From Cytauxzoon felis (lineage: Eukaryota > Apicomplexa > Aconoidasida > Piroplasmida > Theileriidae), in contig JAIQCW010000250.1 in the NCBI GenBank assembly GCA_020283715.1, positions 1 through 64,000 of the forward strand: a DNA stretch of 64,000 nt, in the 5' to 3' direction. This document shows, piece by piece, positions 4,059-64,000 of the stretch. Position 1 is the stretch's first letter. Every line of letters begins with the position of its first letter. A program made the position numbers and the translations under genes. The notes beneath the pieces are model-generated. The model ran no database searches, was not told the DNA's origin, and saw nothing but the letters and a program-made list of their open reading frames with translations.

Positions 4059-6048
4059 ATGTCCAGGGCGGAGATTGTTTTTTGTACGTCAAATTTGAAA
4101 AAGGTGCATGAGCTAGAGGTGATTTTAGGTGAAGATTTTGTGGTAAAGAATGAAGCGTTGGACTGTAAGTTAATGTGATGGAATCCTCTCATTTGTACAA
4201 CAACTCTTATAGTATTAGAAATACAAGGGACGCCAGAAGAGATTTCATTAGCCAAAGCCAAAGAAGCTTACAATATTCTAAGGAAACCATTAGTAGTTGA
4301 TGATACGTGTCTATGTTTTAATGCATTTAAGGGTCTGCCAGGGCCATATGTGTATGTTTGAATGTTGGAATCATTCATGTCTATTAGTAAATTCTTCTTG
4401 AATTCCATCGGTAAAGAAGGCTTGTGGAAGTTATTATCAGATTTCGATGTAAATTTAACCTCACATAATAAATTCAAACTCAAACTACAGGATAAAAGTG
4501 GCTATGCGCTTTGTGTCATGGCATACGTCGATGAGAATGGCGTAAAAACATTCGTAGGGAAACATGACGTAAGTACATCATAACCATAGTCAATCATTAC
4601 ACATTCAGGGAAATATCGTCAAGCCCAGAGGTAACTCCAAAATGGGCTGGTATGTTTATACTAGAAAGAACACCAACGACCCTAGCGAAGTACCATATAC
4701 AGATAGGTCTTATGACTATTTTCTGTTCCACATGAGGTCTATCTTTTCCAATTGCCGTGGAGGCCTTTCCACCTGAGGTCGTCTTGCAGACAGCTTCTCT
4801 ATTTACTTCCCCCTCCAGCTCCCGTAGATCAGCTACGGGTAATAAACCTGCGTTATATAGTCCAGTGGTTAATCATATTTATCCAATTGTTTGAGGTTTG
4901 TCGGTGAGGTGGATGAGTGCCCTTTGGCTACGGATACCCATTATCAAACTCGTACAACGAAGTATACATGTCTTTCTAATGATAATAAGAGTAAGGTTGA
5001 GTCCGTGGCTGGTAAATATAATACGATGATTAATGCGGCTACGCAATTGAAGAGTCTTCAGGATGAAAATGCAGTAAAGAGTGTAACGGGTTGTAATAAT
5101 ATTAATACATCATGTAATACTAATACCGGAGGTTCATCTTGTTCAGGTGAACCATGTAAATGCAGTGGTGACTGTGGATGTCCACCTCCTACTCCTGATT
5201 CTAATGGCGTCTTTAATAAATTATGCGGAATTATGTGTTGTAATAAAGAGGGTGGAACTAGCGGATGTAATTGTAGTAGTAATAATGGGAATTGTAATTC
5301 TATAAAATCATTTTGTAAGGAAGTAAAGAATTTCACCGCATTAGTGAAGGAGGTTGTTAAAAAAAAATGGAACAACAACCTCTGCTGAATCTCCTCCTCC
5401 AGCATGTAAATGTACGGGTAAGAATTGCGAGTACTGTAAAACCCGTCGCTTCATTAGACTCGTTGAGGAGTATACGAAGGAGTTGAATGGAAAACATGAG
5501 TGTACTTGCAATAAGCCTGATTGGGGTGATGCATTAATTGATATAACAATAGAGTCAGGACTTGCTGTTGCTCGCTTGATAAAAGCCATCTTCGATCTGT
5601 TTGGTAAAAATTCTAAGAATGGTGAGCAAAAAAAATGGCCAAAAAACAGATGTAACCCCCAAAGAATCCAAGCCAAAATTTTATGAGTGCAAGTGTTGTA
5701 TAGGCAAAAAAGAAGAAAACTGCTTAATGTATGGATACACATGTGATGTATGCCATATATAGTAGAACTAGAGTGAATTACCCGCAGCTGATCTCAGGGA
5801 AGCGGAGGGGGAAGTAAATACAAGAGGCCACCACGGCGAGTGGAAAAGACAGTGATTAGACCTCAAGCGGATTATACAACTTATCAATCGTAATATTCCT
5901 TCATATTTATTTATGTTACAATATGTATTATAGGGATGATATATTTGAGGTTGGTGATCTTGGTAGAACGTATGGTGAATTATCGCTGTCTGAGAAGAGT
6001 TTGATATCGCATAGGTATAGAGCGGCTATACAGTTGAAGGTATTTTGA
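4059..6048 (+). CDS. ITPA: Inosine triphosphate pyrophosphatase (ITPA/Ham1 family), 5 exons
   Basis: Exons 4059-4164, 4213-4351, 4388-4568, 4609-4649 and 5934-6048 join in phase to 193 codons plus stop, about the human ITPA length of 194. The family hydrolyses (d)ITP and dXTP to monophosphates, cleaning the nucleotide pool. Visible signatures are the N-terminal CTSNLKK substrate loop, [20 protein letters not shown], the central [15 protein letters not shown] strand, [15 protein letters not shown] across the last splice junction, and [10 protein letters not shown] at the C-terminus. The first three introns are 36-48 nt. The fourth (4650-5933) is 1284 bp and contains opposed repeat arms around a Cys-rich antigen fragment. 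The last exon is required to complete the conserved GWDP-like motif, so the insert lies within a gene that still reads as intact. Confidence 0.93.
4735..4865 (+). repeat. Repeat cluster, left arm in ITPA intron 4 (modules B, A, E, C)
   Basis: This has a GCCGTGGAGGCC core, then TCCACCTGAGGT, a CTTGCAGACAGCT copy and a C module ending GATCAGCTACGGGTA. The antigen fragment starts just downstream, and an inverted C copy lies after it at 5778-5850. Confidence 0.85.
4872..5759 (+). pseudogene. Cysteine-rich antigen-family fragment nested in ITPA intron 4
   Basis: Three overlapping frames (about 4872-5387, 5354-5686 and 5640-5759) encode one continuous style of Cys-rich protein: [29 protein letters not shown], then VEEYTKELN and CTCN, then CKCC, ending [12 protein letters not shown] before a stop. 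The frame changes twice, each time at an A run followed by TGG (nine A near 5359-5367, eight A near 5628-5635), and each time by the same +1 step. There is no ATG or signal peptide; coding-like sequence begins right after the left repeat arm. It lies in the same orientation as ITPA. A related remnant in the VPS13 intron joins the VEEYTK and CCxxNCL parts in a single frame, which supports reading these frames together. The style resembles piroplasm variant surface proteins, but I cannot name the family. Confidence 0.7.
5775..5875 (-). repeat. Repeat cluster, right arm in ITPA intron 4 (inverted C, B, A)
   Basis: This has a CCGCAGCTGATCTCAGGG start, the AAGTAAAT segment, a CCACCACGGCGAGTGG copy and ACCTCAAGCGG. 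It is the mirror image of the left arm at 4735-4865. Confidence 0.85.
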
Positions 6049-6225: not shown

Positions 6226-7378
6226 ATGAAATCTGTGGTAAATTGAATTTTAATATTTTTTTAAATATTAATATCAATTTCTATTATTTATAGAATCGTG
6301 CAGTTCGAGAATTACCATGGAGATCAAGATATGATATCCTTAGAGAACGAATAAAACCAAGATATATGAATGAATGTATTGGAACACCAAGACGAGAATA
6401 TCAAGTTAATGTCATTAATAATATCAGAATCGCACCCACATTCAATCCATACGTATTACTCAATAAAGATAAAAGATATAGACTCGATCATTGGCCATCC
6501 AGGTATATTTCATAACAACAATTACATTCAATAATTACTCTATATCATCACTCAACTCTACCTGAGGTTACAACCTCTGTTCCACTAGGCGTGGAGCCTC
6601 TTCTATTTACTTGTCCCTCCGCTTCCCTGAGATCAGCTACGGGTAGTCCACTTGAGGTTACATCTACTAGACCCGAGGTCCCTTCTGGATATACTTTATA
6701 CCGAGGATGATCTACGGGAATCCGAGGGGAGGTAATTGGAAGAGCTGTCTGCAAGACCAATGGTGGCTGTAACCTCAGGTGGAGAAGACAAGGTTGGATC
6801 TAGAGTGCACTAGACAACTAATTGTTATTATCAACTGATTATTATTTATAGGAATTGGGATGATTGGACACCTACATCATGTTTTTTGAGGGGTGGTAGG
6901 CGTAGATATGAATTACCAAAGTCATTATTACCTATTAAGGATGAATTAGGTGAATCACATCCTCCAGTGTATGTTGTCATATAATTATTTTTGACATGAA
7001 ATTTTTTTAGTATTTCTGGTCGTTATAAAGCTGATATTAGGAAACTAATTTTATTTTAATTGTATTGTTTAATTATTATTTTTTTTATATTTATAATCTA
7101 TAGCTTTACCATGGATATGGGATATAAATTATTATACTGGACGTGTACATTATCATGATAGAGATATATTACAACCTAAAATATGGTATAAATATGCATA
7201 TAGAAATAATATTATTAATATGGAACTTAAAAATATCAATAAAAATATAAATGATTATAGATTAGAAGTTAAAATGAAAAAACGATTATCATATTTAGAA
7301 AAAGCTATCGCAGGAATTACAGGTGATGAATTATCATCAAAATATATCAGACAACGTAAAATACCCAAAATAGCCTAA
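6226..7378 (+). CDS. Conserved basic protein of unknown function, multi-exon
   Basis: It starts with a four-codon exon (6226-6237), then 6294-6502, 6852-6968 and a last coding block to the stop at 7376-7378. The protein is rich in Arg, Trp and Tyr: ELPWRSRYD, TPRREYQV, NWDDWTPTSCFLRGGRRRYE, then LPWIWDINYYTGRVHYH and a charged helical tail. This composition fits a mitochondrial ribosomal or RNA-binding protein, but I do not recognise a family. The junction between 6968 and about 7104 is uncertain: joining the two directly leaves the frame off by one, and an eight-base micro-exon near 7011-7018 would restore it. Intron 6503-6851 (349 bp) is filled by a repeat cluster. Confidence 0.65.
6556..6795. 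repeat. Repeat cluster in an intron of the basic protein (A, B, C, A, E, A')
   Basis: It opens with ACCTGAGGT and ends with ACCTCAGGTGG. It contains a B variant (CACTAGGCGTGGAGCC), a C module, and between them a TACCGAGGATGATCTACGGG segment shared with 31980-32010. Confidence 0.85.
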
Positions 7379-7435
7379 ATCAATATAAACATCATATAAT
7401 ATCTATACTACATATACACAATATCTAATCACCAT

Positions 7436-7775
7436 CTTCTATACCCGAGGTTACATTCATGCCGTCAGCATCTTCACCTAGGTCTTTCCACTCGCCGTGG
7501 TGGCCTCTTCTATTTACTTCCCCCTTCGCTTCCCTGAGATCAGCTACGGGTAGTCCACCTCCACTTGAGGTCCAGTCACTACCTTCGCCACGATCTCCGG
7601 GAGTGGCTATACTCTTTAGAGATAGGTAATTAGAAGAGCTGTCTGCAAGACAAGGAGATGTGGATTGGACCTCAAGTGGAGAGCTCTCTGCAAGAGTAAG
7701 AGAGGCGGATTGGACCTCAGGCATCACGCTTAGTGGAAAGAGAGTTGGACTGTAACCTCAGGTGTCACGCTGAAT
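7436..7775. repeat. Repeat cluster downstream of the basic protein (A, B, C, A, D', E', A')
   Basis: This has full-length B, C and inverted D modules, followed by three degenerating copies of the ACCTCAAGTGG end with GGATTGG spacers. The host is unclear: it may lie in an intron of the small minus-strand reading frame at 7831-8037. Confidence 0.8.
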
Positions 7776-8449: not shown

Positions 8450-11400
8450 ATGTTTAAAGGGTTATATCCAAATATTAAACATATACCACATGATTATTTA
8501 TCAAAATCTATATTAAAAAATCAATTATTAGATAATAAATCATGTAATATTAATTTATTAAAAGCTATATCTGGATCTCATCTATTATACTTATCACCTT
8601 ATGATTCTGCACTCATTTTCAATCAATTAAATAATTCTAATGATTTTAAATTTAAATCTCATCCATTATATAAAAGTGTTATTAATCGTCTTATTAATAG
8701 TATCATCAATTATCAATATCAACTTTTCCCATATTTTTTTAAACAATTCTCTCTACTACATGAATCTTATGGTGTTAAATCTATAATCTCTATCATATTA
8801 CATCGTAATCTTTTACATTATTATAATTTCAATACTCTTGTCGATCTTTTCTATCTATCATCTTATTTTATACCCAACGAATTTCAAGATATTTATAAAC
8901 AATTCCATACCAATATACTCTCAAATCTTAATATCAAACATAATAACCTCAATAAAGTCATCATCTATAAAATCATCTACGCCATCGGAAAAATACAACA
9001 TCTTAACCTACCCGAAACCATAAAAACCATCAATCTCATCATACCACAAGGTAAGTCATATCATATACGAATGCAGTCTATCTTATCCACTCGCCGTGGT
9101 GGCCTTCTCTATTTACTTCCCCCTCCGCTTCCCTGAGATCAGCTACGGGTATTATGCCAGAGGTAGTGGTGATATTAAACGTGACCTTGATAGTGCTGGT
9201 GATACAGGTTATACTCCATTAGATTCTGTTGAAATTGATATAAGCACAGCACCTACTGTTGTCGGCGCTGCTGATGGAGGTAAATATATGTCCGCAGGTA
9301 TAACAATTCAAGTCGAGAAGCAAAGTGTTAGCGGTAGTAGTTCATGGAAGCGTTACAAACATTCTAATAGTCGGGGATTTACGCTCGGAAAGATAACTAA
9401 TAGCGATCAGACTATGACTGATTGTAGTGGAGGAACTTTGACTGCTAACATGAATACTAAAATTGAACAAAATGGCGCTATATATGTTTATTATGATAAT
9501 GATACAAATATAGAACGACCTAAAGTAATTTGTATATCTATTGATAATCCTTCACAAACTTCTAATAATACGTGGTATAAGGCAGGTACAACTCCCAGTG
9601 GTTGGAGCATTGCTACAAATTTAGATAAGAAGAAAGATCCAACTGCCGTCACTCAAACAGAACTTGAAGCAGCTAGTGCTGGAGAAATTAATATTAACGC
9701 TAGTTCAAATTATGTAATTAAATTAGATAAGAGGCCTTTGACGGCAGGTTCTGGTAATAAGATTAAATATAGAACTGGTAATGAGGAGTTTACGGTTGAA
9801 AGGAAGGATGGTACGACTAATGGTCCAGTACCAGATAATTATGTTAGATACGATCATAAACCTACGACAGCTGGTTCTAACTTCACATTGTCTTCAGTTA
9901 AACATAATGATCATGTATTGGGTGGAATATCTGGTGGAACTAAAGGTGTTACGGCAGTTTATGTATATTACCGTGGAAATAGTGAGGACAATGATCATCA
10001 ATTTCCATTGATTGTATGTGTTAAGACTACCACTTCCACGTATTATCAAAGGGGAAATAAATGGACTACAATTGACAATCTAACTGCAGACCCGGAAACT
10101 TTAAAAGATGCTGGTCTTAAAACACTTACAGGTAAACTTGGTGAGGTTAAAGGGAAATTTGAGGTTAAGCTCGAGAAAACCAATTCTAATAGCGATAGCC
10201 CATACACAGCGCGTCCTGAAACACCTAATGATACAATTACTGTTACTTCTCTATATCCTGATTCTTCCGATACCTTCAAAGGTTTTAAACATGAAGTTAC
10301 TGGTGAAATAAATCTGATAACTATACATGGACAAGCGATAACAGCAATTGAAAATAATGATCTTACTGGAAAACCATATGTATTTGTATATTTTTCAACC
10401 GATGATACCAATAATACTAAACCTCTGTTAATATGTTTATCGAAGGATGGAACTAATGATAATCAAACTGAATCTAATAACAATACATGGTATAAGCGGG
10501 AATACAATAAGGACACCCATGAAAATACATGGCAGAATGTTACCTCTCATATTGGCTATGATACTATAAAACCAGCCGATGGATCATCAATTGATTCTAA
10601 ACTTGTGCCCAAACTCGATGCAATTAAATATGCAATTCAGCCATACTCGGGCCTTGCTAAACTATTTGGTGCTGGTAAAGATGGTCAAGAATATCATATA
10701 TTACATTGGTCTCCAATATTTCTGGTAGCCCTCTCATTAGGCACATTCTATTTCTTCTACCCTGCTATATCACCATATCAATTAGTTGATGATCCCTATG
10801 ATGGTAAAAAGATTGAATTATGGATCCAGGCCATTTCTGCTACACCCCATATCGCATTCGCCATAACCCAACTTTGTAAAAAAGGCCCGGGTAGGACTTG
10901 GAGGAATAAATGGTATCAGAAAAATGGCGTTGATACTGAAGAAACTGGTAGTGAACATTTGTATGCACTCTATCATTTGACATGGTTATTTTTCATACCC
11001 TATATAATATGCATATACATTTTCTTTTCCATGATGCACTTTCCCGACGGACGCATTGGTAAATATTTCAGGTGGAGTGTAATAAAAGACATATATTATT
11101 ATAATATGGGGTAACTTGGGATAATTAACCCAATAATATCAAATAAACCCCATTTTTTATCACCCGTAGCTGATCTCTGGGAAGCGGAGGGGGAGGTAAA
11201 TGGAAGAGCTGACGGCAGGACGACATCAAGTGGAACTGCGAGTAGAAAGGCTTCATATTTATCCTTTTATGTAGTATTTAAATAAAAATATTATATTAAT
11301 TTAGTTAGGACTGAGGTAGATAATGATTCTTGGGAGTCGAAGTATTTATATCGTATCTTTGTAATTTTGTATGAAGTTGGGCATTTTAATAGAGATTTTG

Positions 11401-11701: not shown

Positions 11702-14700
11702 TGGTAGATAAAGTTACAGTAATACCACCAGATGCAATAATAGCATTATCAAAAACACATACATTATTTCAAAATGATAAAATTATACTGTCAGAAGAAG
11801 CAGCAATATTAATTGCAAATACAATCGAATTTAGAATCAAACAAATAATACAAATGGCCAGAAGATTCATGACCAAAAGTATCAGACCAACATTCGCCAC
11901 CACACTCCTACCATCAGATGTCAGAAATGCACTCAGAACACTCAATATGAAGGTATGCATAAACTAATATAATGAATACCACACCATTCCACCCGAAGTC
12001 CAACCCAACTCTTTCCCACTAGGCGTCCCACCTGAGGTCTTGCAGACAGCTTCTCTATTTACCTCCCCCTCCGCTTCCCTGAGATCAGCTGCGGGTATTC
12101 CACTTGAGGTCACATCATCACTTCTCATCGCCACGATCTCCGGGAGTGGCTTTACTCTTTAGAGATAGGTAATTAGAAGTGCCTCCACGGCGAGTGGAAA
12201 GAAGAGGTGGATTGGACCTCAGGTTGAATATCGAGTGGAATGATATAGTTTTTATTATATGTATATATTGATAAATAGGATTTGGAGGGTTATAGTAATT
12301 GTTATGATTATCGTTATGTATGGGCTACAAAGTTGTATAAGGGTGATCGTGTGATAAAGAGGGAATCATGTTATCGTAATTCATTGGGTGAGAAATGTTG
12401 GGGTAGATATCGTTTAACTGAGGTGGTACAGCAGGATATGCAAAAACCTGTACCAGCAGCTCCTGGTTTAACAGTACATTGGATGGTTGTTAATGGTAAA
12501 GTTCCAATTATATCTAGTAATTTGGGTGAATGTATAACAGATGAATTCCAAAAAAGGATGCAAAATTTAATAATTAAAGAAGAAATATCAAATATAAATT
12601 ATCTTGATTATTCAGATACTATAGATTCTATAGATAATATTAATACTCTATTAACTACATTTAAACATCCAGATCCCAATCTAAAAACTACACTCAATAA
12701 TAATAATATCGAAAAAGGTATATTCGATGCTATTAATAAACAAATTATTGATGATAAAAATCCCAATAAACAAAATAAAATTATCATACCCAAAATCGAT
12801 CATCTACTTACTAAGGTATATATACCCAATATACTCAATCATAATATCTCAGGAACATCGATTCTTCCTCAAAGAAATCAGAAATACCATCAGAAGAGCC
12901 TCTTATACACTCGATAATGATATACATACACAATTCAAAAAAGGTTTGTATTATTGATGAAAGTCATATACCCGAGGTACAATCCACCTCTACTTCCCAT
13001 TGCATGGAGCTTCTCCACTTGAGGTCGTCTTGCAGACAGCTTCTCTATTTACTTCCCCCTTCGCTTCCCTGAGATCAGCTACGGGTAGTCCACTTGAGGT
13101 CAATTAGTACTAATTTCATTACTTCATTTCTACCCCCAAATTTTGAAGGAATTTCATCATTTCTGGGGAAACTACTGAAGATTGTGGAACGACTATTGAA
13201 TGTAATTCTGATGTCAATACGTCATTGAAGAGGAATTTGATGATCGTATTTAGTTTAACAAACCTCACTTCATTTCATATTGTATCACTGAGATATCCGA
13301 ACAAACATGAATTCCGTCACTTTAGTCTTATCTCGTCGAGATTAGGAATTAACCTCAAGTGGAACCTGGAAGCGATCTATGGGAGCTGGAAGGGGAAGTA
13401 AATAAAGGAGCTGACGGCAGGACTGACCTCAGGTGGAGAAGCCACCACGGCGAGTGGAAGAGAGGTGGATTGGAACTCGATGTAACACTTTCGGTTTCTT
13501 TATATATATTAATATTTAGTTGTGGGTATATTGAAATCATCATTGGCATTGGATCAGTTATTACCTGAATTGTGTCATTTTTTTGTGACGGAGATGGCTC
13601 GTTATAAGAGTAATCCATCATCTATGAGTATATCGATATTATTGGAATATGTTGAGGCTATAACATCAAATCCTAATCTTCAATTACATCATCATGTATG
13701 TTATAATATTTTAAATTTATATTTTATTAATAGATACATCAATTATTAATACCATTATTGGAGATATTACTTGGACCTGATGAACCTAATCCATCATTTA
13801 TATATCGTGGATTATTATTAAGAAGATATGCCGCACAGGTATTAATTTCTAATTGTTCCTTTAAATATATCTTTTTTTTTAGTCTATTGGTAATATCGCA
13901 TCAAATTTACGTAATTTTAGAAATGGCTTAGAAAATATAGATAATTATCTAATGTCATTATATAAAAGTGAAATACTTAATGAAAATTGCTCATTATCTA
14001 TACTTTATGGGGCATTATGTGGTATTTCTAAATTACCATTAACAGCTAAAAGAATAATATTTTACCCCATGGTACCATTATTATTATATGTGGTTATTAA
14101 AAAACAAATGAATATTTATAAAAATTTTATACCACATAATAATAATCAATATAAAATACAACAATTCAAAATTATAATCTGTCAAGAAATTATACATCTT
14201 ATCATGGTATATTTAATATATTAAATAACACTATATTATAATATAGGCTATCATCTATGATGCCGGATTCGAAGATGTACTCTCAACACTAGATGATACC
14301 GGTATTAAACTCACAATCTCACAACAAGGTACGTCTATCACACACGAAGTCCAATCCAACTCTCTTCCACCTGAGGTCGTCTTGCAGACAGCTCCTTTAT
14401 TTACTTCCCCCTTCGCTTCCCTGAGATCAGCTCCGGGTTCTCCACCTGAGGTCCAGTGACAATACTTCGACCACGATCTCTGGGAGTGGCTTTACCGTTT
14501 ACGGGGAGGTAAATGGAAGAGGCCTCCACGGCGAGTGGAAAAGATAGACCTCAGGTGGATATAATGTGAAATATATTGTAAATTAAATTGTTTTTGTTAT
14601 ATAATAAAAAATATATAGCAAAGACGATGGTGAATGAGACATTATTGGGTTGTGTGAATTCGAGTATAAATCCTGAGTGTTTTTTGCCGGTATATACGGC

Positions 14701-14980: not shown

Positions 14981-15024
14981 TAAATTTATTACCTAATAAC
15001 TGAATATAATATGAATGTTTAGCC

Positions 15025-15285
15025 CACTCGAGGTCCAATCCACCTCTGATCCCACTTGCCGTGGAGGCCTCTTCTAATTACCTATCTCTAAAGAGTATAG
15101 CCACTCCCGGAGATCGTGGCAGAAGTTTAGTAGATTGTAACCTCAAGTGGAAGTGGACTACCCGCAGCTGATCTCAGGGAAGCGGAGGGGGAAATAAATA
15201 GAAGAGGCTCCACGCCGAGTGGAAAGACCTCAGGTGGAAGAGCTGACGGCAGGACGAAGAGAGGTTGATTGGACATCTTTTGGAG
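15025..15285. repeat. Repeat cluster between TAF6 and TOP3 (A, B, D, A', C', B', A', E')
   Basis: The cluster fills the gap between two convergent genes. D is in forward orientation here and C is inverted, the reverse of the TAF6 intron 7 copy. Confidence 0.88.
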
Positions 15286-15310: not shown

Positions 15311-18300
15311 TTAATAGGTTGAGATTGTTTGTGTTGGTGGTTCATCGGGATTTATTCGTGTGAGTGTATTCATGGCTTGATCGAAATATGTTGGTTCACT
15401 GGCGATTTCGAGATAGATATTCTTCATGAGTATAGAATAATTATGTATAACTTCACTCTTATCTTTGTATCCATTTGCTATATCATTCATATCACTTTCC
15501 ATTCTTGCTCTTAGTATTGGTTTTGTTAAATCTACTGATGATCTAGTATACCTCTTAAATGCCTGAAATATCAGGTTGATAAATATGGGGTAAATTCAAC
15601 TAACTGTATAAATGCATTTGCCCAAGTTTGTGGGTATAAATGTAAAATCATTATTTTTTATTGTATAAAATCGATCTTGGATCTTTTGTATATGTTCATG
15701 CATTGTAGCATCTGTACCAATACCATTCTATAGAAAAATGTATTTTATGGGGATATATCCAATATATTTACCTTATTCATCAAATCTATAAGTTTAGATT
15801 CTGTAATTAATGATGGTGGTGTAGTTTTCCCCTCCTATTATAATAGAAATATTAAACTTCAATTTTATTTATATACCTTTAATATAATCTTTGACGGTAT
15901 AAATTCTTGACCCTCCATGAAATTAGGTATAATTTTACCATCCCTATATAAAATGTGTGGTTTTATATAAGGAATTTTACCCCATATCCCCATTTGAGTA
16001 ACTAACCATTTTTCATATTTATAAATTTCGAGCCAATTTAATTCTCTAATAACTAATCCTTTAGTATGGAATCCTTCTCCAGAGATATCAATAAATATAT
16101 TTGATTCTGATCCATTAGCGATTTCACTACAGCACGCTAAGAAGTGTCTTGTAATAAATTCATACAAATCCCAATGTAATTGTGATTCAGCTTCATTGGG
16201 TAACATTGATTTTACAGGATGTATAGGTGGATGTGCTTTATCATTTTTATCACCCATTAATGGTACACAAAAACCACCTATAATATAATTATGTGGGGGA
16301 TAAATATCCCCATTTAATTTACCATTTAGTAATTTATTAGCATAAAAACTAAAGTCAGGATGATCATTAAATATATTAACAATAGATAATAAATCCATAC
16401 TATTAGGAAATATATTCGTCTCAGTCCTCGGATAACTAATATAACCCTTATTATACAAACCCTCAGCCAATTGCATACACCTAAATAAAGTTTAATAAGC
16501 AAACGAGTGAATGAGTAATTATTGTACACTACACCTTCTTTATCCTGCCTTCCACCTGAGGTCGTCCTGCCGTCAGCTCTTCTATTTACTTCCCCCTCCA
16601 GCTCCCGTAGATCGCTTCCAGGTTCAACTTGAGGTATCCACCTGAGGTCCAGTGACTATACTTCGGCCACGATCTCTGGGAGTGGCTCTACTCTTTAGAG
16701 ATATGTAATTAAAAGAGCTGTCTGCAAGACGAAGGATAGGTGGATGTAACCTCAGGTGGAACGGCGAGTGGACCTCATGGGTAACAATAAATGTTAACAT
16801 ACTTCGAGGACGAGATCTTTAGATATTTGCATACGAATTTATTCATTTCCACGGTATCTATAATTCATATGGTGTAAATTAAATATAAAATACCCAATGG
16901 TAATGGGGGGTACTTTTTGATTTGGCGGTTCGTAATCTATAAATGGGGTTTAAAATAATAGCACTACAAACCTTGGTGATGTATGAAATGGGGTTTTGTA
17001 GGCATATTTCATATAGTGATAATACAGCTAATCTATGATTATATATATTGATTATGATCATTAATCAACTTACCTATCAAATAACTTTATACGATCCCAA
17101 TAAAATACTACTTGTATATCATTCCTACAAATGGGGTTTTTTATCCATACATACTTACACTTTTAGTGTTACATTGATGGTCCAGAATGGTTCTCTAATA
17201 AAACTTTCAATTTTATTAAATCGTTCTACAATGAATCCCAATGTTGGTAATTGACAAGGCCCATAACTAAATGTTATAAAATTATCTCAATCAATACAAT
17301 ACCTCAATACATTAGCTTTAGTCTCAATCATATTCTTATACTTCAACGTCATAAATCTAGTCATAGATGAACCTATCCTCAAATCAATCTCCTGTCTAGT
17401 CTCAACAGCCTTTTTTTGTGAGGTTAAATTACACCATAAAAATATACCATTGCTAAATTCTTATTTGGATCTCTCAAAGTATTACAAGCATCCTCAATAT
17501 CCGTCTCTATAATAATAATGAAAAGAGCTTAATAACTAAAATGTTGCCTGTTCCAGTTGTGGTCCATCTTTTCCATTGCATGGCGCTCTTCTATTTACTT
17601 CCCCTTCCAGCTCCCATAGATCGCTTCCAGGTTCCACATGAGGTTATCTCCACTCGAGGTCCAATCATCCACACCTACACTTCTGCCACGATCTCTGGGA
17701 GTGGCTATACTCTTTAGAGATAGGTAAATAGAGAAGGCTCCACGCCTAGTGGAAGGAGAGGTTGTACAACTTCTGTGGATTTAACTTAGGGTGGAAAACA
17801 AACTTGTAACGGCTGAAAAGATAGCTCTTCGAATGATTGGGCATCTATTGACTCTTTGAAATACGGAGAGAACTTCGAATGCAATGGCTTCACCTTCTCG
17901 ATCGCAATCGAGCCATAGTATAATTTTGGTGCATCTGGATCAAAAATGAATTTCAATATGATGAATTATACATTTTGGCATAGTGGAGTATATTTTTCTC
18001 GATATCTTTCGAGTCGTTCGATACACATGAATTTATGGGCGCTACAGAAATGTGTAGAGTGAAAATGACGAGAAATGTATACCTGTGAATAATTCCTGTA
18101 TTGGTGTCTTATTCCAATTGCGATATTGAGGATCGAAATCAAACGTTATTAGATGTCTAATACTATAATAATGTCAAAGTACCTTCAACTAACCCTCGTA
18201 CAGAAGTAAAATACATTTTAGACGCTTCGCCATCTATATAAGTAGAAAAAGAATAGACAGGATTCGTTTTTGAATTTGTATATTCCTATTTTATAAAATT

Positions 18301-21889: not shown

Positions 21890-22115
21890 ATCAACCTCTT
21901 TGTCCTGCAGAGAGCTCTCCACTTGAGGTCGTCCTACAGTCAGCTCTTTTAATTACCTATCTCTAAAGAGTAGAGCCACTCCCGGAGATCGTGGCGATAG
22001 AAGGTAATGATGTAACCTCAAGTGGAAGTGAAATACCGAAAGCGATCTATGGGAGCTGGAGGGGGAAATAATAAAGGAGGCACCACGCCAGTGGGAATAT
22101 ATATCCTGATATTAG
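21890..22115. repeat. Repeat cluster between two divergent genes (E, A, E, D, A', C', B')
   Basis: D-type layout with forward D and inverted C. It lies between start codons of the seven-helix gene (-) and the polytopic gene (+), so it may sit in a 5' UTR intron. A decayed D-like copy follows at 22125-22180. Confidence 0.82.
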
Positions 22116-46784: not shown

Positions 46785-47260
46785 CCACCTCTCTTTATCC
46801 TGCCGTTAGTTCTTCCACTTGAGGTCTTTCCACTCGGCGTGGAGGCCTCTTATATTTACTTCCCCTTCCAGCTCCCGTAGATCGCTTCCAGGTATTACAC
46901 TTGAGGTCATTTACTACTAATTTCACTAGTGCATTTTTATGTCTAAAATTTGAAGGAAAATATTAATTTCTGGGGAAACTCATGAAGATTGCTCAATCAA
47001 TATTGGATGTAATATAAATGTCAATACTTCATTGAAGAGAACTTCGTCGATTATATTGAGTTTACTGAACCTCACTTCATTCCAATTTATATTCGTTGAG
47101 ATATCCTTCCAAACATGAATTCCGTCACTTTATCCTTATCTCGTCGAGATTAGAAATATAACCTCAAGTGGAATACCCGCAGCTGATCTCAGGGAAGCGA
47201 AGGGGGAAGTAAATAAGAAGGCCACCACGGCGAGTGGAACGACTTCAGGTGGGGTCGAGT
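46785..47260. repeat. Repeat cluster between the RCC1 gene and plasmepsin V (E, A, B, C variant, A, H', A', C', B', A')
   Basis: An H-type layout fills the gap between two convergent genes. H is inverted (46915-47160). Confidence 0.87.
46915..47160 (-). repeat. H module copy 5
   Basis: Contains TTGAAGGAAAATATTAATTT and ends with TCTCGTCGAGATTAGAAATA. Same orientation as copy 1. Confidence 0.85.
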
Positions 47261-52640: not shown

Positions 52641-55025
52641 ATGTACTCGTATATACTCGTATATCTTGTGTCAATTGCTAATGGAATCCTATACACCAGA
52701 CAATACTCGTATATAACACCGATATATTCACATAATGGTATGAAAAATGACAAAAAAATACATTTATATACACTGAAAAAAACTAATACTACTCAAACCT
52801 AGAGGATTCTGCGAAGGAGTCAGCAGAGCCATCAAAACTGTAGAAGAATGCATACGAATACACGGACCTCCCATCTACGTCAATCATGAAATCGTACATA
52901 ACGAAACCGTATGCAAAAGACTACAAGTATGTGAAAATAATGAAAAATAACTCGTATTACACCTGAAGTCTCCACCTGAGGTTACATCCTTAGTACCTCT
53001 ACCTTCGCCACTCGCCGTGGAGCCTTCTCTATTTACTTCCCCCTTCGCTTCCCTGAGATCAGCTTCGGGTTCCACTCGAGGTCCAGTACTACTCTTCATT
53101 CCATCTCCTCCTTCATTCGTCCTGCCGTCAGCTCTTTTAATTACCTCACCTCGACTCCCATGGATCGTCTCGGATTCTTCGCCACGATCTCCGGGAGTGG
53201 CATTACCCTTTAGGTATAGGTAATTGGAAGAGGGCTCCACGGCGAGTGGAAAAGAGAGTTGGACTGGACCTCAAGTTGAATACCCGAGAACGATCTCTGG
53301 GAGTTTGAGGGGGATGTAAATAGAAGAGCTGACGGCAGGACTGACCTCTAGTGGAGAGGCTCCACGCCTAGTGGAAGAGGTGAAGGTAGTGATTAGACCA
53401 CGGGTGGAACTGTTCACTTCGTCGTTTTTATATATGTATGATTTTTATAGGAGAAGGGTGTGATATTTGTGGATGATATATCATTGATACCTAGAGGATC
53501 GATATTGGTATATTCAGCTCATGGTGTATCTCCATCTGTAAGAGAGATTGCAAAAGGATTAGAATTGATTGAAATAGATGCATCATGTCCATTAGTTAAT
53601 AAAGTACATGTTTATGTTAAGAAGAAGACAGAAGAAGGATATAAAATTATACTTATAGGTCATAAGAATCATCGTAAGTTATTATAGATGATAGAGGTAA
53701 TATATTTTTATATTTGTAGAAGAAACTATTGGTACAAGTGGTGAAGCACCAGATAATGTAAAAATTATAGAAACTGTTAATGATGTTAATGAATTGAATT
53801 ATAATAAAGATGATAAATTATTTTATGTTACACAAACAACATTAAGTATGGATGATTGTAAAGAAATACGTAATGCTTTAATTAAAAAATATCCAAATAT
53901 TGAAACCATACCTAGCGGATCCATCTGCTATGCTACAACTAATAGACAAACAGCTATACATAAAGCAACACAATTCTGTGATCTTATACTCGTTGTAGGC
54001 AGCACCACATCTTCAAATGCTAATCGATTAGTCGATGCAGCAGTCTATAGAAATGTCAGGTTCGTCATATCAAACATATGTAATGAATCTCCACCCGAGG
54101 TCCTGCCGTCAGCTCTTCCTTTTATTTCCCCTTCCAGCTCCCGTAGATCGCTTCCAGGTTCCACTTGAGGTCTCCACCTGAGGTCCAATCCAACCTCTCT
54201 TCGTCCTGCCGTCAGCTTCTCTATTTACTTCCCCCTCAAACTCCCAGAGATCGTTCTCGGATATTCCACTTGAGGTACATCCAACACATCCTTAGCACCA
54301 TCTTCCATCATTCCCATGATGGATCATCCATCACTACCTTCAATATACCCCAGAATTATCGGGATAAAAAACACCATTTCCCCTACTTTTTCAATGTTAA
54401 TTGAAGATTGATAAGTGAATATAATATATATACTTGTAATAATACAATTGAGGGATGATATATAGTTGTATGATGGTATATATGTATTAATATAAAGTAT
54501 TATTACAATATATATACTATAATACTACTAACATGAACCAACACTACTATAGTAACTATATTATACTAGTAATAATACTAGATATATATACTTTAATAAA
54601 TTATTATAATACTGTACAAAGGTTGTAAATGATTTAGAGAAGATAATTGTGGGATTATAATTAGTTAATATTAGTGGACAAGACCTCAAGTGGAGAACCC
54701 GAGAACGATCTCTGGGAGTTTGAGGGGGAATAAATAGAGAAGGCACCACGCCTAGTGGAACAGAGGCTGTAACCTCAGGTGGAGGTGTATATCAATTCAT
54801 TTGATTTATAATATATTTAGGTCTAAATTGATATTTGATTGTAATGATATAACAGAGGAGTTGATTGGGTCGGCTGTTAATGTTGGATTATCATCATCTG
54901 CATCTACACCTGAGGATTTGACAATGGCAGTTGTTGATAAATTAACATCACCTCCATTCAATTTCAAATTGGAAGAGTATGATGCATGTGAAGAGCGTGT
55001 GCCTAAATGGCGTCTACCCAGGTAA
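52641..55025 (+). CDS. ispH: IspH (LytB), apicoplast MEP-pathway reductase, with a homopolymer frame break
   Basis: IspH makes IPP and DMAPP from HMBPP with a 4Fe-4S cluster. All three cluster Cys are visible: GFCEGV (exon 1), SCPLV (exon 2) and ICYATTNRQ (exon 3). SAHGVSP, TQTTLS and SSSASTPEDL also match. The first exon starts MYSYILVYLVSIANG, a signal peptide, followed by a basic transit-like stretch, fitting apicoplast import. Exons are 52641-52926, 53451-53673, 53720-54059 and 54821-55025. Between the leader and LILLKPRGFC the frame breaks at a run of seven A (52776-52782). Removing one A makes all four exons join in phase to 350 codons, so this is either an assembly error, slippage or a recent mutation. 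Introns 1 and 3 (524 and 761 bp) hold repeat clusters. Confidence 0.88.
52965..53410. repeat. Repeat cluster in IspH intron 1 (A, B, C, A, E, C variant, D', B', A', C', E', A', B')
   Basis: Two linked units: a D-type unit (52965-53270) and a second inverted C with CTGACGGCAGGACTGACC and CACGCCTAGTGG. The intron is 524 bp. Confidence 0.87.
54085..54345. repeat. Repeat cluster, left part of IspH intron 3 (A, E, C variant, A, E, C variant, A, I)
   Basis: Two forward C copies (about 54125 and 54225) are followed by an I module (54285-54340). The J module and a right arm complete the intron. Confidence 0.86.
54285..54340 (+). repeat. I module copy 2
   Basis: ACATCCAACACATCCTTAGC and the hairpin CCATCAT-TCCC-ATGATGG are present, followed by ATCATCCATCACTACCTT. 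Confidence 0.83.
54345..54615 (+). repeat. J module copy 2
   Basis: The strings CAATTGAGGGATGATATATA, AAAGTATTATTACAATATAT and TACTACTAACATGAACC match the copy at 43555-43860. Here it sits in an intron, between I and the right arm. Confidence 0.83.
54684..54785 (-). repeat. Repeat cluster, right arm of IspH intron 3 (A', C' variant, B', A')
   Basis: ACCTCAAGTGG, a CGATCTCTGGGAGTTTGAGG C variant, CACGCCTAGTGG and ACCTCAGGTGG. Confidence 0.85.
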
Positions 55026-56194: not shown

Positions 56195-59100
56195 ATGATA
56201 TTCAAAAGAGGATATATTAAGGAAGGCTTTAAATATTTTACACATTTGTATAATAAATGGAGGAATTTGTACATTAAATGTGACGTTAGACCTGATGGCA
56301 AATTTTATAATTACTTTACAATACCGATTTTGACATCCTGTATCTATTTGGGATTCAATAAATGTAATTTTAATTTAGTGCTTAAATTTTCAATGAAATT
56401 TATTTTTAGACCCAATCTTTTGTAATACACTCACAAAGGTCGAGCTCGGTAATGTAGATGACTTCAAAGACGGTAAAAACCATGAAGTCAAGTTGAATAA
56501 TGGTAAGCTTGAACATAAATGTATGTGTTACATTTATATAGGTAAAGACATCGTTCTAGTATCCAGAGTCAATGGACGTTACTATTGCACTGGTTCAACA
56601 TGTCCTCACTACTCAGCACCATTCATCGATGGTAAGCCAATATATAGTTACTCCATCTATATCCTTATACTCTCCTCCACCGTAGGTCTTGCAGACAGCT
56701 CTTCTATTTACTTCCCCTTCCAGCTCCCATAGATCGCTTCCAGGTATTCCACTTCCACTTGAGGTTACCATCTTACCTCTTCCTTCACTTCTGCCACGAT
56801 CTCTGGGAGTGGCTATACTCTTTAGAGATAGGTAATTGGAAGAGCTGACGGCAGGATGACCTCAGGTGGAACGGCGAGTGGAAAAGGTGAATGTAAGGAT
56901 GATATAACCTCAAGTGGAGTGGTTTGTACATCAGTTGTAGTATTAATTATACTAAATATATTAATTTACTATAGGTGGATTGACTGATACATGTTTGATA
57001 TGTCCATGGCATGATGCTAAATTTGATGTTAAGAGTGGTAAATGTTTAAATGGTATATTATGTTTGTATTATTGTATAAATGATTATAGGTCCATGTTAT
57101 AATGATATACCCGTATATAATGTTGTGATTGAGGGTGATAAATTATATGCGTATTTACCACAATCTCCATTACCTGTTTGTTGTATTAGTAAATAATTAT
57201 TTGATATTATTAGAAAATTGTTGATAAACCAAAGTTTAAATTTGATGGTAATGATAAACGTACATTTGTTATATGTGGTGGAGGTGCTGCTGCACATTCT
57301 ACTGCTGTATCATTAAGAGATTTGGGTTTTGGAGGTATATTATTAATATATTGGATATAAATTTTATTATTAGGACGTATATTAATTTATGGTGATGAAA
57401 AGTATTTGCCTTATTATCGTCCCCATTTAACTAAATTATATCACAACTATTCATATGATAAAGTAGCTGTTGAACAATCATTAAGTCCTGAAGAGTATTA
57501 TAATGATTATAAAATTGAATATAATGGTGGTAAAAAGGTAATAGATGTAAATGTAAAGGATAAAATGATTAAATTAGATGATGGTACAAGTGTTAAATAT
57601 GATAAGGTAAGAAATATTTTTAAGCCCTCTATATTTTTATATCATCAGGTTGTAATTGCTACAGGTACTTTATCAAAGACACTACCATTTACAAATGGTA
57701 TGAACGTTAGTAATCATGTGACCATAAGAACTATTGAAGACATGAAGAAATTATCAACCTTTATAAAGCCCGGAAATAATATTGTAAATTCATCCGATCC
57801 CATCATCATATATTCCTCTTCAGGTCATTATCGGATCAAATTTCATCGGATGCGAATTAGCATCAGCACTCAGATCCACAGGAGTTAAATTAACCATTAT
57901 TACAGATGTATGTCAATACTAATGTTAATTCCACCTGAGGTCCTATCCTACTCTCTTCATCCTGCCGTCAGCTTCCTCTTTTACCTCCCCCTTCGCTTCC
58001 CTGAGATCAGCTGCGGGTAGTCCACTTGAGGTTACATCCTTAACCTCGCCACGATCTCCGGGAGTGGCTTTACCGTTTACGGGGAGGTAATTGGGAGAGC
58101 CTCCACGGCTAGTGGCTAGAGAGTAGGATTGGACTTCAGGTGGAGTAAATCTAAAAGATTGAATTTCCATGTTATATCATGTTGTTCATGATGAATGAAA
58201 TTACTTTTTTATATTCTAATTTATTTAGATGGAGAAGCCTATGCAGAATATAATTGGAAAGAGGGGTGGTAGTTTGATTGAAAATTTATTGAAAAAAAAT
58301 GGTATTACATTCCTACCAAAGTCGAAAGTTATGGGGTATGATATAAAAAATGGGGTCATAACGGAGGTGAAGTTGAGTGATAGGGTGGTGCAAGCGGATT
58401 GTGTAGTTGAGGGTATAGGTACAATGATAGATTCCAAATTATTACCATGCGCAAATATTACACCAAATGGTACCATTAAAGTCGATGAACATTTCAAATG
58501 TGTCGGTTGCCCAAATGATGTCTACGCAGCCGGAGATATCGTCACATATCCATACCATCTCACTGGTAAGTCTAATGAACACATAACTAATGTACAATCA
58601 CTCATCTCCACCATTTTTCCACTCGCTATTCCACCTGAGTTACAACCACCTCTCCTTCATCCTGCCGTCAGCTCTTCCAATTACCTATCTCTAAAGAGTA
58701 GAGCCACTCCCGGAGATCGTGGCGGAAGTAGAGGTTGTAGTGATGTAACCTCAAGTGGAACCCGTAGCTGATCTCAGGGAAGCGGAGGGGGAAGTAAATA
58801 GAAGAGCTCCATGCAATGGAAAGGATGGACCTCGAGTGGAGTGTTTTATGGTTTATACATTGATTTCTACAGGTGAAGATATATCGATCAAGCATTGGAA
58901 TGTTGCATTACAGCATGGCAGGATAGTTGCAAAGAATTTACTTGGTGTAGATACTAGGATGGATACTGTACCATTTTTCTGGTCTAATTTCTTTACAAAA
59001 GGATTCAGGTATATTAAATTTTTATTTATATTTTACCCCATTTAATAGATTTGCTGGTGTTGCTAATGATGTTGATGATATAATATATGAGGGTGATGTA

Positions 59101-59374: not shown

Positions 59375-59620
59375 ACCGAAGTGCAATCCTTGACATCTGA
59401 AGTTACTACCACTGTTCCACTGGGCGTGGAGCCTCTTCCAATTACCTATCTCTAAAGAGTAGAGCCACTCCCAGAGATCGTGGCGGAAGTATAGTGATTG
59501 GACCTCGAGTGGAAAACCCGCAGCTGATCTCAGGGAAGCGAAGGGGGAATTAAATAGAGAAGGCATCACGCCTAGTGGAAGACCCCAGGTGGACGTGGAT
59601 TAAACCTCACGTAGAAGTCA
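59375..59620. repeat. Repeat cluster after the Rieske-AIF gene (A, B, D, A', C', B', A')
   Basis: D-type layout with forward D and inverted C in the gap between convergent genes. Confidence 0.87.
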
Positions 59621-59917: not shown

Positions 59918-60878
59918 TTACAATGAGGCACAAGATAAATTTTGACGAAACTCAGGATTTGAAAAGAAATAAATAAATAATATTATACATATAAACTGTA
60001 AACTAAATATCGAACCATTCGCGATTATATACTGTAAATATAATTAATAATCATGAGCCAAAGGAGTAATAACATAAACATCCACCCGATAGATCTTCAT
60101 CCTCCACCATCCCTTGTCTTGCAGACAGCTTCCTTATTTACTTCCCCTTCCAGCTCCCATAGATCGCTTCCGGGTTCCACTTGAGGTTAATTCCTAATCT
60201 CGACGAGATAAGACTAAAGTGACGGAATTCATGTTTAATCGGAAATCTCAATGGATATTAATTGAAATGATGTGAGGATGACTAATTTCAATACAATCAC
60301 CAAAGTCCTCTTCAATGAAGTATTGAGATTAGATATACATCCAATATTCATTCCACAATGTTCATGAGTTTCCCCAGAAATTAGAGATTTCCTTCAAACT
60401 TCAGAGGTAAAAATGAAGATAATGAAATTAGACCTCAAGTGGTACCCGTAGCTGATCTCAGGGAAGCGGAGGGGAAATAAATAGAGAAGGCCTCCACGGC
60501 GAGTGGGAAGAGAGATTGGAGTGCAAGATGACATAAAGTAGAAGTAAATTGACTCTACTTCCGGTGGAATATGAGTGTATGAAGTAATGTAGAGCATATG
60601 AACATACGATAATGTATTTATAGCCATTAAGTAGATAGTTTCTGAATGTTTGTATGACGATCATGATATTAACAGAGAGGATGAGTAGAGAGACGACTAT
60701 AATGATTGATATATGATAATTAATGTATAAACATACTTCTATATTTTGTTTGTTTTTCGATTTCATTTTGATATGTGGTAGATATAGACAATTCCAATTG
60801 TCTAATGGCTATAGTATAGTATTATAAAATATGATTATATAAAAGTATACCTTGTTGATTCCTTTCATTTGAAATCAT
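59918..60878 (-). CDS. Small two-helix membrane protein of unknown function
   Basis: Exons 60878-60851, 60808-60737, 60696-60608 and 60031-59918 join in phase to 100 residues. It starts MISNERNQQAIRQLELSIST, has a helix IVSLLILSVNIMIVIQTF followed by a short loop, and a second helix FSLQFICIILFIYFFS before NPEFRQNLSCASL. No family recognised. Introns 1 and 2 are about 40 nt. The third is 576 bp and filled by an H-type repeat cluster, which separates the two membrane helices. The exon model rests on phase and splice sites alone. Confidence 0.6.
60100..60545. repeat. Repeat cluster in the intron of the small two-helix protein (E, C variant, A, H, A', C', B')
   Basis: An H-type layout with opposed C arms around H (60190-60425). 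The intron is 576 bp, identical in length to TAF6 intron 3. Confidence 0.87.
60190..60425 (+). repeat. H module copy 6
   Basis: TAATCTCGACGAGATAAGAC at the start, AATGAAGTATTGAGATTAGA in the middle and CCAGAAATTAGAGATTTCCTTC near the end (read in part). Confidence 0.84.
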
Positions 60879-61240: not shown

Positions 61241-64000
61241 AAATAAATCCGGACCAAGCACAACAGTTGATGTTACACGCTTACGAGCATCCTGAAATGC
61301 TAAATATACCGAATTTATCACCGATGAATTCGACGACGGTATCTGATAATACTTGTCCTGACACCTAAATTTATTTTTTATTTATACATTATAATCCATC
61401 CGAAGTATGAGCAGTCAACATGAAGTCCAATCCACCTCTTCTTCCACTCCAATCTCTCTTCCCACTCGCCGTGGAGGCCTTCTCTATTTACTTCCCCCTC
61501 CGCTTCCCTGAGATCAGCTACGGGATCCACTCGAGGTTGCCTAATTGTCCTCATTATCTTTTAATTTCCCAACAACACACTTGTAACCATCCTTTAGGCA
61601 GTTTTTACTATCTTTTTTGCAGCAATTACAGATTATACGCGCAAATGAAAATGATTTCATCATGGCAAAAGGATTGAATGATAATGAAATTTCAATGCTT
61701 ACATTCGCTCTGCATTCACACGAATTCTTCAAATTCAACTGCTTCGTATACTCCTCGAATTAAATCATACTCTTTACCCATAACTGATCTCAGGGAAGCG
61801 GAGAGACAACTAAATAGAGAAGGCTGCATGCCTAGTGGAATGTGTACTCATCCTCCTGTAGAGATCTCTCCACCTGGGGTCCAATTCACATCTTCATTCC
61901 ACTCGCCGTGGTGGCCTCCTCTATTTACCTCCCCTTCCAGCTCCCATGGATCGCTTACAGGTTCCACTTGAGGTTACATCCAACACATCCTTAGAACCAT
62001 CTTCCATCATTCCCATGATGGATGATCCATCACTACCTTCACCTCCGCCACGATCTCCGGGAGTGGCATCACCCTTTAGGGATAGGTAATTAGAAGAGCT
62101 GACGGCAGGAGAAGAGAGTTGGATTGGACATCAGGTGGAACGGCGAGTGGAAGAGTAGATGATGGTGATTGGACCTCGAGTGGAAGACACGTCGTATGGA
62201 CAACACCTCAGTCATACTTCCTTCGGCTTAGTTAGCGTATAAACATACTTGATGATGATTCCATGATTTGATGCTCGTACATCTTGAATGAGGTTGATGT
62301 GTAGTTTCCAAAAGTTATGGTATTTATTATATAATTGTGAGTAGTATATTTTAGCGGGGTAGAATAATAGTGCGGTATGAGTATGATTATTTGAGAGTAT
62401 GGTTTGAAAGTGTATAATTTTCTTGGAGAGTTTATTACCTAATAATTGTTTAATATTAGCATCTGTAGAATTATATTGTTTAACTTGTGAGAATTCTCCC
62501 CATAGCATTCTAATAGGTCTACAATTATTATTATTGGAAGTATATTTATCAAAATGTGTAGATTTAGATATATTATCTTTAATAGTTTTAGATACATGTG
62601 ATACAGCTTGTCCAACTTTATCAATAGGTTTAACAATAGATCCAGCAATACCTTTACCAATACCTTTAATAAAACCACCCATACCTTCTTTTTGTGCACC
62701 TTCAATAGGTTTAGTAACAATATTAGTAAGTGATAAAAAACCTTCACCAATAGATTTACCAGCAGAAAAAAATCCTTCTTTCATAGTATGATAAGTTTTA
62801 TTATTAAGTCTATCACGTTGTCTTTTATTAATATAATCATTATCAAATGTAAATTTAGATAATATATTACCAAGACCATTACTAACAGAATCAACAGCAT
62901 CAGCTGCAAATTCAATAGTACATTTACCAACAGTAATAGGTAATTTAGGTATATTTAATAATGAACTATAACCTAATATACTACCTATACATGATAATGC
63001 AGAATGTACATAACGATCTTTAATTTGTTCATAAAATGATATTAATGTATTTCTAGATATATTAACATATTCTTTTTGAAATTGTAATGGTGCACCTATT
63101 AATTCAAAACGTCTAGATACACTTAATATTCTTAAACCTATTCTTATAATATCACCTAACATATATAATTTATCAACTTCAAAATTACACCATAATATTA
63201 TATTAAAATTATCTATATATAAATAATCTAATGATATTACCATTGGTAATTTATATATCATATCTATAGATGATAATTTTAATTTTGATTCTTTATATAT
63301 CCATTCATCTATTATTCTTATATTTATTCTATCATTATTATAATATCTATTCTTACCAATAGATTTATAACATTCTTTATAAAAATTATATATACGACTA
63401 AATAATATATCAGATAAATATAATTGTATATCATCCATTATAATAAATACTTTCTTTAAATATATATCCATACAATTCTTATTCATTCTATCTATATATA
63501 TCTGTAAAAAATATCTTTGTATATCATTCTTTATCTTACCACGATTTATTATTATCATATTATATTCATTCTCATCATAATATTGATTATCTATCTGTAT
63601 ATTACCTATACGTAATTCTATACGCTGATCATCATCACTAGATAATAACATCAACATTATCGATGTCAACTCCATAAAAAATAACTCCTCATGTACTGTA
63701 TGCGATACCAAACTTACACCTATCGATGATAAATTTATCAATAAACTCATCGATGATGTAACTCCAAATGAATTATTTATATCATCTACTACTCCACTTG
63801 AGGTCCTGTACTCATCACCATTTTTACCTCTTCCTTCTAGTACAACCTTATCTTCGTCTTGCAGACAGCTTCCTTTATTTACTTCCCCCTTCGCTTCCCT
63901 GAGATCAGCTGCGGGTAGTCCACTTGAGGTTACATCTACTATATCCAAGGACTGTTCTTCCGGGTTAACATCTTTCGTTCTTCGGGGTTGAACATCTTCG
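61235..64000 (-). CDS. VPS13: VPS13 C-terminal part, partial (N-terminus beyond the right edge)
   Basis: Visible exons are about 63775-62249 and 61364-61235. The sequence carries the VPS13 C-terminal signature: RFELIGAPLQFQKEYVN, a glycine-rich amphipathic part (SLTNIVTKPIEGAQKEG, GGFIKGIGKGIAGSIV, KPIDKVGQAV) and the last exon with CQDKYYQIPSSNSSVINSVY and LAFQDARKRV. VPS13 is a bridge-like lipid transporter at membrane contacts. The upstream intron contains a repeat cluster that reaches the window edge. The last intron (61365-62248, 884 bp) holds repeats around a Cys-rich antigen remnant; the splice AA|G restores the frame. Confidence 0.87.
61410..61535 (+). repeat. Repeat cluster, left arm in the last VPS13 intron (A, B, C, A)
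   Basis: CCACTCGCCGTGGAGGCC, a C module ending GATCAGCTACGGGA and CCACTCGAGGT. The Cys-rich remnant begins to the right. Confidence 0.85.
61541..61752 (-). pseudogene. Cysteine-rich antigen-family remnant in the last VPS13 intron
   Basis: A short minus-strand frame encodes EEYTKQLNLKNSCEC, then after about 25 residues ICNCCKKDSKNCLKDGYKC. These blocks align with [16 protein letters not shown] and CKCC...NCLMYGYTC in the fragment inside the ITPA intron, in the same order. The remnant has lost the N-terminal Cys-rich part: an in-frame stop lies just upstream, near the repeat arm. It lies in the same orientation as VPS13. So two unrelated host genes contain pieces of one family in their introns. 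Confidence 0.65.
61775..62205. repeat. Repeat cluster, right part of the last VPS13 intron (C', B', A, B, C variant, A, I, D', E', A')
   Basis: An inverted C next to the remnant (AACTGATCTCAGGGAAGCGG), then a full D-type unit with an I module (61975-62037). Confidence 0.86.
61975..62037 (+). repeat. I module copy 3
   Basis: ACATCCAACACATCCTTAGA and the hairpin TCCATCAT-TCCC-ATGATGGA are followed by TGATCCATCACTACCTT. Confidence 0.84.
63790..64000. repeat. Repeat cluster in an upstream VPS13 intron, cut by the window edge (A, E, C, A, G)
   Basis: CCACTTGAGGTCC, CTTGCAGACAGCT, a C module ending GATCAGCTGCGGGTA, CCACTTGAGGT and a G stretch (TTCTTCCGGGTTAACATC) at the very end. The unit continues beyond the window. 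Confidence 0.86.

Follow-up and report, generated by a model that had tools for sequence, protein, structure and literature searches.

The same few short modules recur again and again in the window, the first 64,000 nucleotides of an 86,837-base Cytauxzoon felis contig (C146), and raise the question of what kind of element they form and where in a gene such an element can sit. The first-pass annotation had placed modular clusters in introns and some intergenic gaps and likened them to introner-like elements or MITEs. We searched a draft genome of 8.62 Mb in 181 contigs, in which at least 145 matches to the FAINT domain, a domain that points to the Theileria/Cytauxzoon branch, were found, and analyzed a sample of 302,673 bases comprising the window and about 239 kb of other sequence of the same genome. 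The G+C content of the window was 31.8%, the same figure as that published for the 9.1-Mb C. felis genome (PMC3748084).

With a cluster defined as at least three recognized modules, the sample contained 178 clusters covering 39,495 bases (13.0%), and the window 43 covering 8,646 bases, the last of which extends to contig base 64138. Matches to the A module numbered 559 in the sample and core-module matches 326, against 6 and 0 in a reversed-sequence control, which yielded one further match (e4-like) and none to any other module. The claim that modular clusters are numerous was therefore well founded. Genome-wide, the exact A motif, TCCACYTGAGGT, was found 6,584 times (3,280 + 3,304) and never in the reversed control. 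As 297 of these motifs fall in the sample, its element density is somewhat above the genome average, and scaling by the motif suggests, very roughly, ~3,900 clusters, or about a tenth of the genome. Among the matches listed in a literature search that took in few subscription journals, we found no account of this element; of six papers that print any of five words from its sequence, the only one on Cytauxzoon does so within a cf76 primer.

Each arm runs in the order A (TCCACYTGAGGT), E/F module, T/A-rich link, and core X. Modules face each other, as first described, and facing A/E/X arms form terminal inverted repeats with ragged outer limits. The proposal that a cluster starts with A and ends with its reverse complement holds as a tendency only: A was the first and inverted A the last recognized module in 63 of 178 clusters, and other modules were often outermost. 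The features of the window are as follows, with strand where one is assigned.

4727-5871: facing arms A f1 A e1 Xc ... Xc f1 A, ~1 kb apart, enclosing a cysteine-rich coding stretch
6557-6783: short element A f2 Xc A ... Xk e1 A, AT-rich on both flanks
7456-7736: short element Xc/Xd
9087-11234: facing Xc arms 2.0 kb apart; interior nearly all one frame, 9024-11114, 696 aa stop to stop
11988-12227: short element Xc/Xd
12997-13457: mid-length Xc ... Xh; middle insert shared, inverted, with those at 28.5, 33.5, 27.0, and 60.2 kb
14366-14559: short element Xc/Xd, folding z = -4.84
15023-15255: short element Xd/Xc
16551-16760: short element Xh/Xd adjoining a topoisomerase exon (Topoisom_bac)
17573-17795: short element Xh/Xd
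19068-19343: short element Xd/Xc; the frame of an RRM-protein exon continues into it
20746-20987: short element Xk/Xc
21902-22057: short element Xd/Xh
23103-23294: short element Xg/Xd
24130-24335: short element Xd/Xh, folding z = -8.54
26776-27248: mid-length Xh ... Xc with the shared 244-nt insert (family D10)
28334-28887: mid-length Xh ... Xc with the shared insert and an additional Xh arm
30945-31261: short element Xd/Xc
31685-32077: element Xc/Xd plus an Xk arm, close to a ribosomal protein L23 exon
33335-33895: mid-length with the shared insert; the frame of a Paf1-like exon continues into it
34729-34952: short element Xa/Xd
35623-35919: short element Xc/Xd
38903-39178: short element Xd/Xh
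40844-41030: outward-facing Xc and Xh arms separating two frames of one gene family
46814-47253: mid-length Xh ... Xc; the middle matches the shared insert, inverted
52958-53408: Xg/Xd core within Xc ... Xa arms, apparently nested
54090-54783: two clusters between a LytB-matching exon and the C-terminal LytB exon (the latter by eye)
56686-56918: short element Xh/Xd
57930-58144: short element Xc/Xd
58630-58840: short element Xd/Xc, intronic; GTAAGT donor and ACAG acceptor outside the element
59417-59593: short element Xd/Xc
60116-60568: mid-length Xh ... Xc with the shared insert
61395-62184: element group, Xc ... Xc and Xh/Xd
63793-64000 (continuing to contig base 64138), minus strand: exonic element, d arm first in sense, in frame, within a 2,143-aa frame (62215-68643)

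Of the gene names given earlier to the neighboring exons, Ribosomal_L23, RRM_1, Topoisom_bac, and LYTB (IspH) were above the Pfam cut-off and Paf1 was just under it (22.5 vs 24.7 bits); the VPS13 candidate had no Pfam match. We take the 2,143-aa frame to be this VPS13 candidate, a name assigned by eye.

Core modules keep an 11-nt loop, TCCCNNAGATC, and the 3-nt arms that flank it change on both sides together. A search for the loop alone, blind to the arms and with one mismatch tolerated, returned 399 places, 316 of which had perfectly complementary 3-nt arms. These comprised seven recurrent kinds of pair (GCT/AGC 126, CAC/GTG 110, AGC/GCT 50, AAC/GTT 11, GAC/GTC 9, GAT/ATC 4, and AGT/ACT 3) and three single ones. 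Shuffled sequence gave about 11 loop matches per 64 kb, which would account for ~54 of the 83 unpaired places. Among 43 distinct 17-mers, the three pairs were formed in 93, 91, and 86%, against 73, 44, and 51% expected under independence and 2-35% for slid pairs; as the 17-mers had been gathered with class-specific patterns, the loop-only search is the less biased test of the arms. By eye, the p modules of the d arm likewise carry complementary pairs (CTCT/AGAG, CCGT/ACGG, and CCCT/AGGG) around AA. Covariation of the arms could stem from palindrome-correcting mutation rather than from selection.

Short whole elements, 30 of which were drawn from 43 eligible, folded with a mean z of -5.68 against shuffles, 25 of the 30 lying below -3, and pieces lacking the outer right arm folded no better than shuffles (z -0.47 and -0.98). 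In the two whole-element minimum-energy folds inspected, the cores paired with each other and local core hairpins were absent, so that the case for a local core hairpin comes from the covarying arms and not from predicted energy.

The pairing of cores follows a strict grammar at short spacing. Exactly one d arm was present in 106 of 109 short facing-core pairs (49.5 expected), the same class never occurred twice (34.2 expected), and the remaining three pairs were k with c. At spacings of 130-450 nt, the one-d rule was absent and 6 of 26 pairs were of the same class. The rule may mean that long perfect palindromes are avoided where the cores lie close together. E/F modules on the left and right assorted independently, with the same class on both sides in 17 of 79 elements (15.2 expected), which fits the cassette-like shuffling first suggested. 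The cores at window positions 4820 and 33758 look chimeric between two classes, with unpaired 3-nt arms, and may record exchange within a core. Mid-length elements have in common a 244-nt middle insert, at 26872-27115, 28419-28662, 33472-33715, and 60175-60418, with 76-80% similarity to the reference copy.

Covarying arms, a kept loop, pairable cores, and the one-d-arm grammar are what might be expected of a structured RNA or regulatory element that serves the host in splicing, transcript stability, or chromatin and is kept for its folds. We nevertheless regard such a role as quite improbable: copies are very many and their contexts varied, E/F modules assort independently, and the window contained no Rfam family above the gathering score, the one match, to MIR7533, reaching 33.5 of 230 bits.

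We then turn to where the element sits. The element is scarcer in open frames than other sequence is, with 28% of its bases in frames of 150 aa or more, as compared with 55% of other bases. The earlier statement that no exon of a recognized protein carries a cluster nevertheless proved incorrect. Counting a cluster as exonic when it lay wholly inside an open frame of at least 150 aa and had 30 aa or more of that frame to each side, we found 23 of 178, in 14 distinct frames that include two helicases. A single stretch of the window's contig, beyond base 62000, supplied eleven of the 23, which makes scaling-up unsafe, and only one, at 63793-64138, begins in the window. All 20 exonic clusters with a d arm were d-first in sense, and in the other three the right arms pointed that way too. 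The core modules gave similar peptides in all exonic copies, for example ATPGDRG, and some E/F modules were read in other frames. Apart from cf76 (below), exonic status is predicted from these open frames.

Among the hosts, a DEAD-box protein has one copy ending directly before the matched part of Helicase_C (Pfam), and the frame of a DDX60-like helicase contains two copies; an SNF2-related protein and an LCCL protein were also recognized by Pfam, with which ten host frames were scanned, six showing no match above cut-off. When one exonic peptide was searched genome-wide, 59 of the 150 matches listed (from 4,191 candidates) lay in frames of at least 300 aa, a hand count of matches rather than distinct frames, from an exonic query that favors an exonic result.

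For a less biased test, coding runs abutting the element on both sides were scored with the element itself ignored, using cuts of our own choosing. Open-run scoring replaced a codon-usage score on 90-nt flanks, which proved too noisy, and covered the 172 clusters with enough flank (6 were dropped). Coding abutted both sides in 24 of the 172, and 21 of these 24 were open straight through; all 18 open-through copies with a single d arm were in sense. Two further open-frame clusters, including that at 63793 in the window, fell below the coding-score cut. As a control, 85 non-exonic copies with one d arm gave 29 open readings out of 510 (5.7%), so that 21 open of 24 is far beyond chance under a simple model. 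Twenty of those 29 were in the coding frame. The element has one long open reading, with the d arm first, and exonic copies sit in that reading.

Since the coding frame is open in 20 of 85 non-exonic copies, as against 0-4 of 85 for any other frame, we considered whether the protein came first, that is, whether a low-complexity coding cassette was spread by recombination and the non-coding copies are its decayed spill-over. We think this unlikely. The great majority of clusters (155 of 178) lie outside long frames. In the search that tolerated one mismatch, the loop hardly varied, even at would-be synonymous sites, yet by eye it changes between Arg and Trp codons, and the arms that flank the loop covary, which coding does not demand.

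Mismatches in exonic cores fell at codon positions 1/2/3 as 27/31/22 for Xc and 28/15/39 for d, giving no clear signal of protein-level selection by codon position in these cores. Exonic copies carried somewhat more mismatches to the consensus than other copies did (per copy, 3.33 vs 2.76 and 4.82 vs 3.67). Element-coded stretches are 80% small or polar residues and 19% hydrophobic, compared with 61% and 37% for host frames, and this polar composition fits tolerated loops.

One exonic copy could be connected with published cDNA work. The gene cf76, a vaccine candidate, is described as a single exon, with fragment primers printed (PMC3748084). Six of the eight cf76 primers that we tried match one 3,033-base locus (L034) without mismatch, and one of the primers has exactly one match genome-wide; the two others are absent from the locus, which ends before the gene does. 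These matches fit a genome of C. felis or something very close to it. Within L034, cf76 (1501-3033) carries an in-frame element at 2031-2313, codons 177-271. The published fragment boundaries fall in this element: fragment 1 ends with a reverse primer that lies over an A module, and fragment 2 begins with a forward primer whose start is in the d core. According to the paper, both fragments were obtained from cDNA, their sizes are printed as 720 and 828 bp, and all clones were sequenced in both directions (PMC3748084). The genomic spans, 1501-2220 and 2182-3009, have exactly these sizes. As cDNA fragments ending in the element match the genomic spans, neither half of the element is spliced out of the cf76 message, although the printed sizes may have been computed from sequence rather than read from a gel and this is one gene only. 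The published cDNA work and this genome together show that one copy is retained in cf76 mRNA. The text of the same paper contains no words beginning splic- or palindrom-, and it gives the sequenced isolate's cf76 protein as 723 aa, longer than most (about 706 aa) (PMC3748084).

The cf76 primers also bear on whether the clusters could be an assembly artefact or foreign contamination. Repeats can confuse assembly, and this draft is in 181 contigs; but independently published primers within one copy amplified cDNA, and copies differ from one another and sit in frame within recognizable genes. We give this explanation practically no weight.

Retention in cf76 speaks against introners, which bring their own splice sites and create introns on insertion. 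Module A contains GAG/GT and its reverse complement CAG/GT, but splicing at those sites would shift the usual PPEV ... TSGG/TSSG reading (phase 0 donor, phase 1 or 2 acceptor; by eye), and yet 21 of 24 copies are open. The three coding-abutting copies that are not open through do look intronic: two lie in introns with ordinary splice sites and the third, single-armed, appears to. In both introns read closely (contig 68507 and 58630), however, the splice sites lie outside the element. An introner origin is thus very unlikely, and of the two affinities first proposed, the MITE-like outline stands, with facing modular inverted repeats beside and between exons, and the introner does not. The element does share with introners the presence of one repeat family in many introns; it differs in its external splice sites, where these were read, and in the exonic cf76 copy that stays in the message. 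A survey of introners (PMC9860276) does not mention Theileria, Babesia, Cytauxzoon, piroplasm, or Apicomplexa in its main text.

Movement of the element would account for its dispersal, shuffling, and apparent nesting (e.g., 52958-53408). The longest word common to both flanks averaged 5.31 across 109 elements, against 5.25 when permuted, and so gave no sign of target-site duplication in a test that ragged ends weaken. No empty sites were found in the sample, where all 12 junction-spanning matches came from one query within the shared middle insert. MULE and Y1_Tnp profiles, for which controls worked, had no match in the genome, nor had DDE_1 and DDE_Tnp_1_7, for which no control genome matched either. 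RVT_1, the kind of domain that a LINE-driven SINE would need, matched a single open frame, at C56, which we guess to be telomerase. These searches yielded no candidate enzyme. A survey of Apicomplexa states that in C. felis it detected no transposable elements, that class II elements were found nowhere in the group, and that candidate MITEs were discarded because they were most likely false positives (PMC9141347). The abundance of the element stands against this result for C. felis.

With abundance, grammar, complementary changing arms, and a single orientation of the exonic copies found established at the sequence level, we consider that the clusters are probably a high-copy, non-autonomous palindromic mobile element of exchangeable modules, compatible with coding, that has spread through the nuclear genome. 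Such an element would be built of facing arms (A, E/F module, and core X), with the core loop fixed and the 3-nt arms changing jointly. Both orientations would occur in introns and intergenic DNA. The asymmetric form, with one d and one other arm, would be readable at length only with d first, and insertions into exons in that orientation and frame would survive and remain in mRNA. Exonic copies would then be translated as a polar, probably disordered insert, so that native proteins would carry the element peptide. A bolder form of this reading seems to us possible rather than probable: a new eukaryotic exon-compatible mobile element with cassette-exchanged modules that is moved by an enzyme, perhaps through a folded single-strand intermediate, and has added the same peptide to perhaps hundreds of proteins of one parasite, whose genome is reported to be free of transposable elements.

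Several known systems resemble the element in part. Like MITEs, it is short, has facing inverted repeats, and occurs in high copy near genes; unlike them, its short elements pair cores of different class, it has in-frame exonic copies, and its flank words are no longer than permuted ones. GC clusters of yeast mitochondrial DNA are GC-rich modular palindromes in an AT-rich genome, with at least one in coding sequence; they share modular palindromes with the present element and differ in being mitochondrial, far fewer, and of other sequence. Foldback transposons have modular inverted-repeat arms with a variable middle and sometimes kilobase cargo, whereas the arms here are about 100 nt, of d and non-d types. 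The closest parallel in behavior is with the Rickettsia palindromic elements, which a review describes as small palindromic repeats of about 150 bp, in several families, that are inserted into unrelated protein genes without breaking the frame and encode a conserved peptide, with 44 integrations cited for genes of R. conorii (PMC10969869). The likeness is drawn from these descriptions, and no membership is claimed. Both are palindromic and sit in frame in unrelated protein genes (here, 23 of 178 clusters), but the Rickettsia elements are bacterial, whereas the present one is in a eukaryotic nucleus, with far more copies, exchangeable modules, and a position mostly outside long frames. In-frame palindromic elements have thus already been described for Rickettsia, and C. 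felis would by analogy provide a eukaryotic nuclear case.

In a eukaryotic nucleus, an element that by extrapolation accounts for some tenth of the genome, perhaps, and lies inside helicases and other proteins would represent an extreme tolerance of proteins for inserted DNA. As cf76 contains a copy, part of this vaccine candidate would be a peptide common to other parasite proteins, a point of practical relevance to antibody specificity, diagnostics, and gene prediction. The element also makes the spread of palindromes without a recognized transposase a testable question.

Finally, facing arms enclose 1-3 kb of mostly coding sequence at four places in the sample: window 4727-5871 and 9087-11234, C100 15.9-17.9 kb, and C120 14.8-18.0 kb. 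We considered the idea that such coding cargo is mobilized by its facing arms. Membership of one gene family is clear for two of the four stretches, at 9.2-11.1 kb of the window and 14.9-17.8 kb of C120, and weak for a third (E 3e-5); the family of the window 9.2-11.1 kb frame is dispersed anyway, with 115 match rows for one member. The 652-aa frame at this place had no homologue by protein search and no Pfam match; Pfam VESA1_N had no match either, and its control was also silent. The cysteine-rich coding stretch is disrupted near A runs at window 5355-5395 and 5625-5645, by either decay of the gene or homopolymer read errors. Related frames of the dispersed family, at window 39216-42629 and 9156-11111 and at L026:4898-7837, have hydrophobic stretches and no Pfam match above cut-off. 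A proline-rich open frame with a long internal repeat lies at window 417-809.
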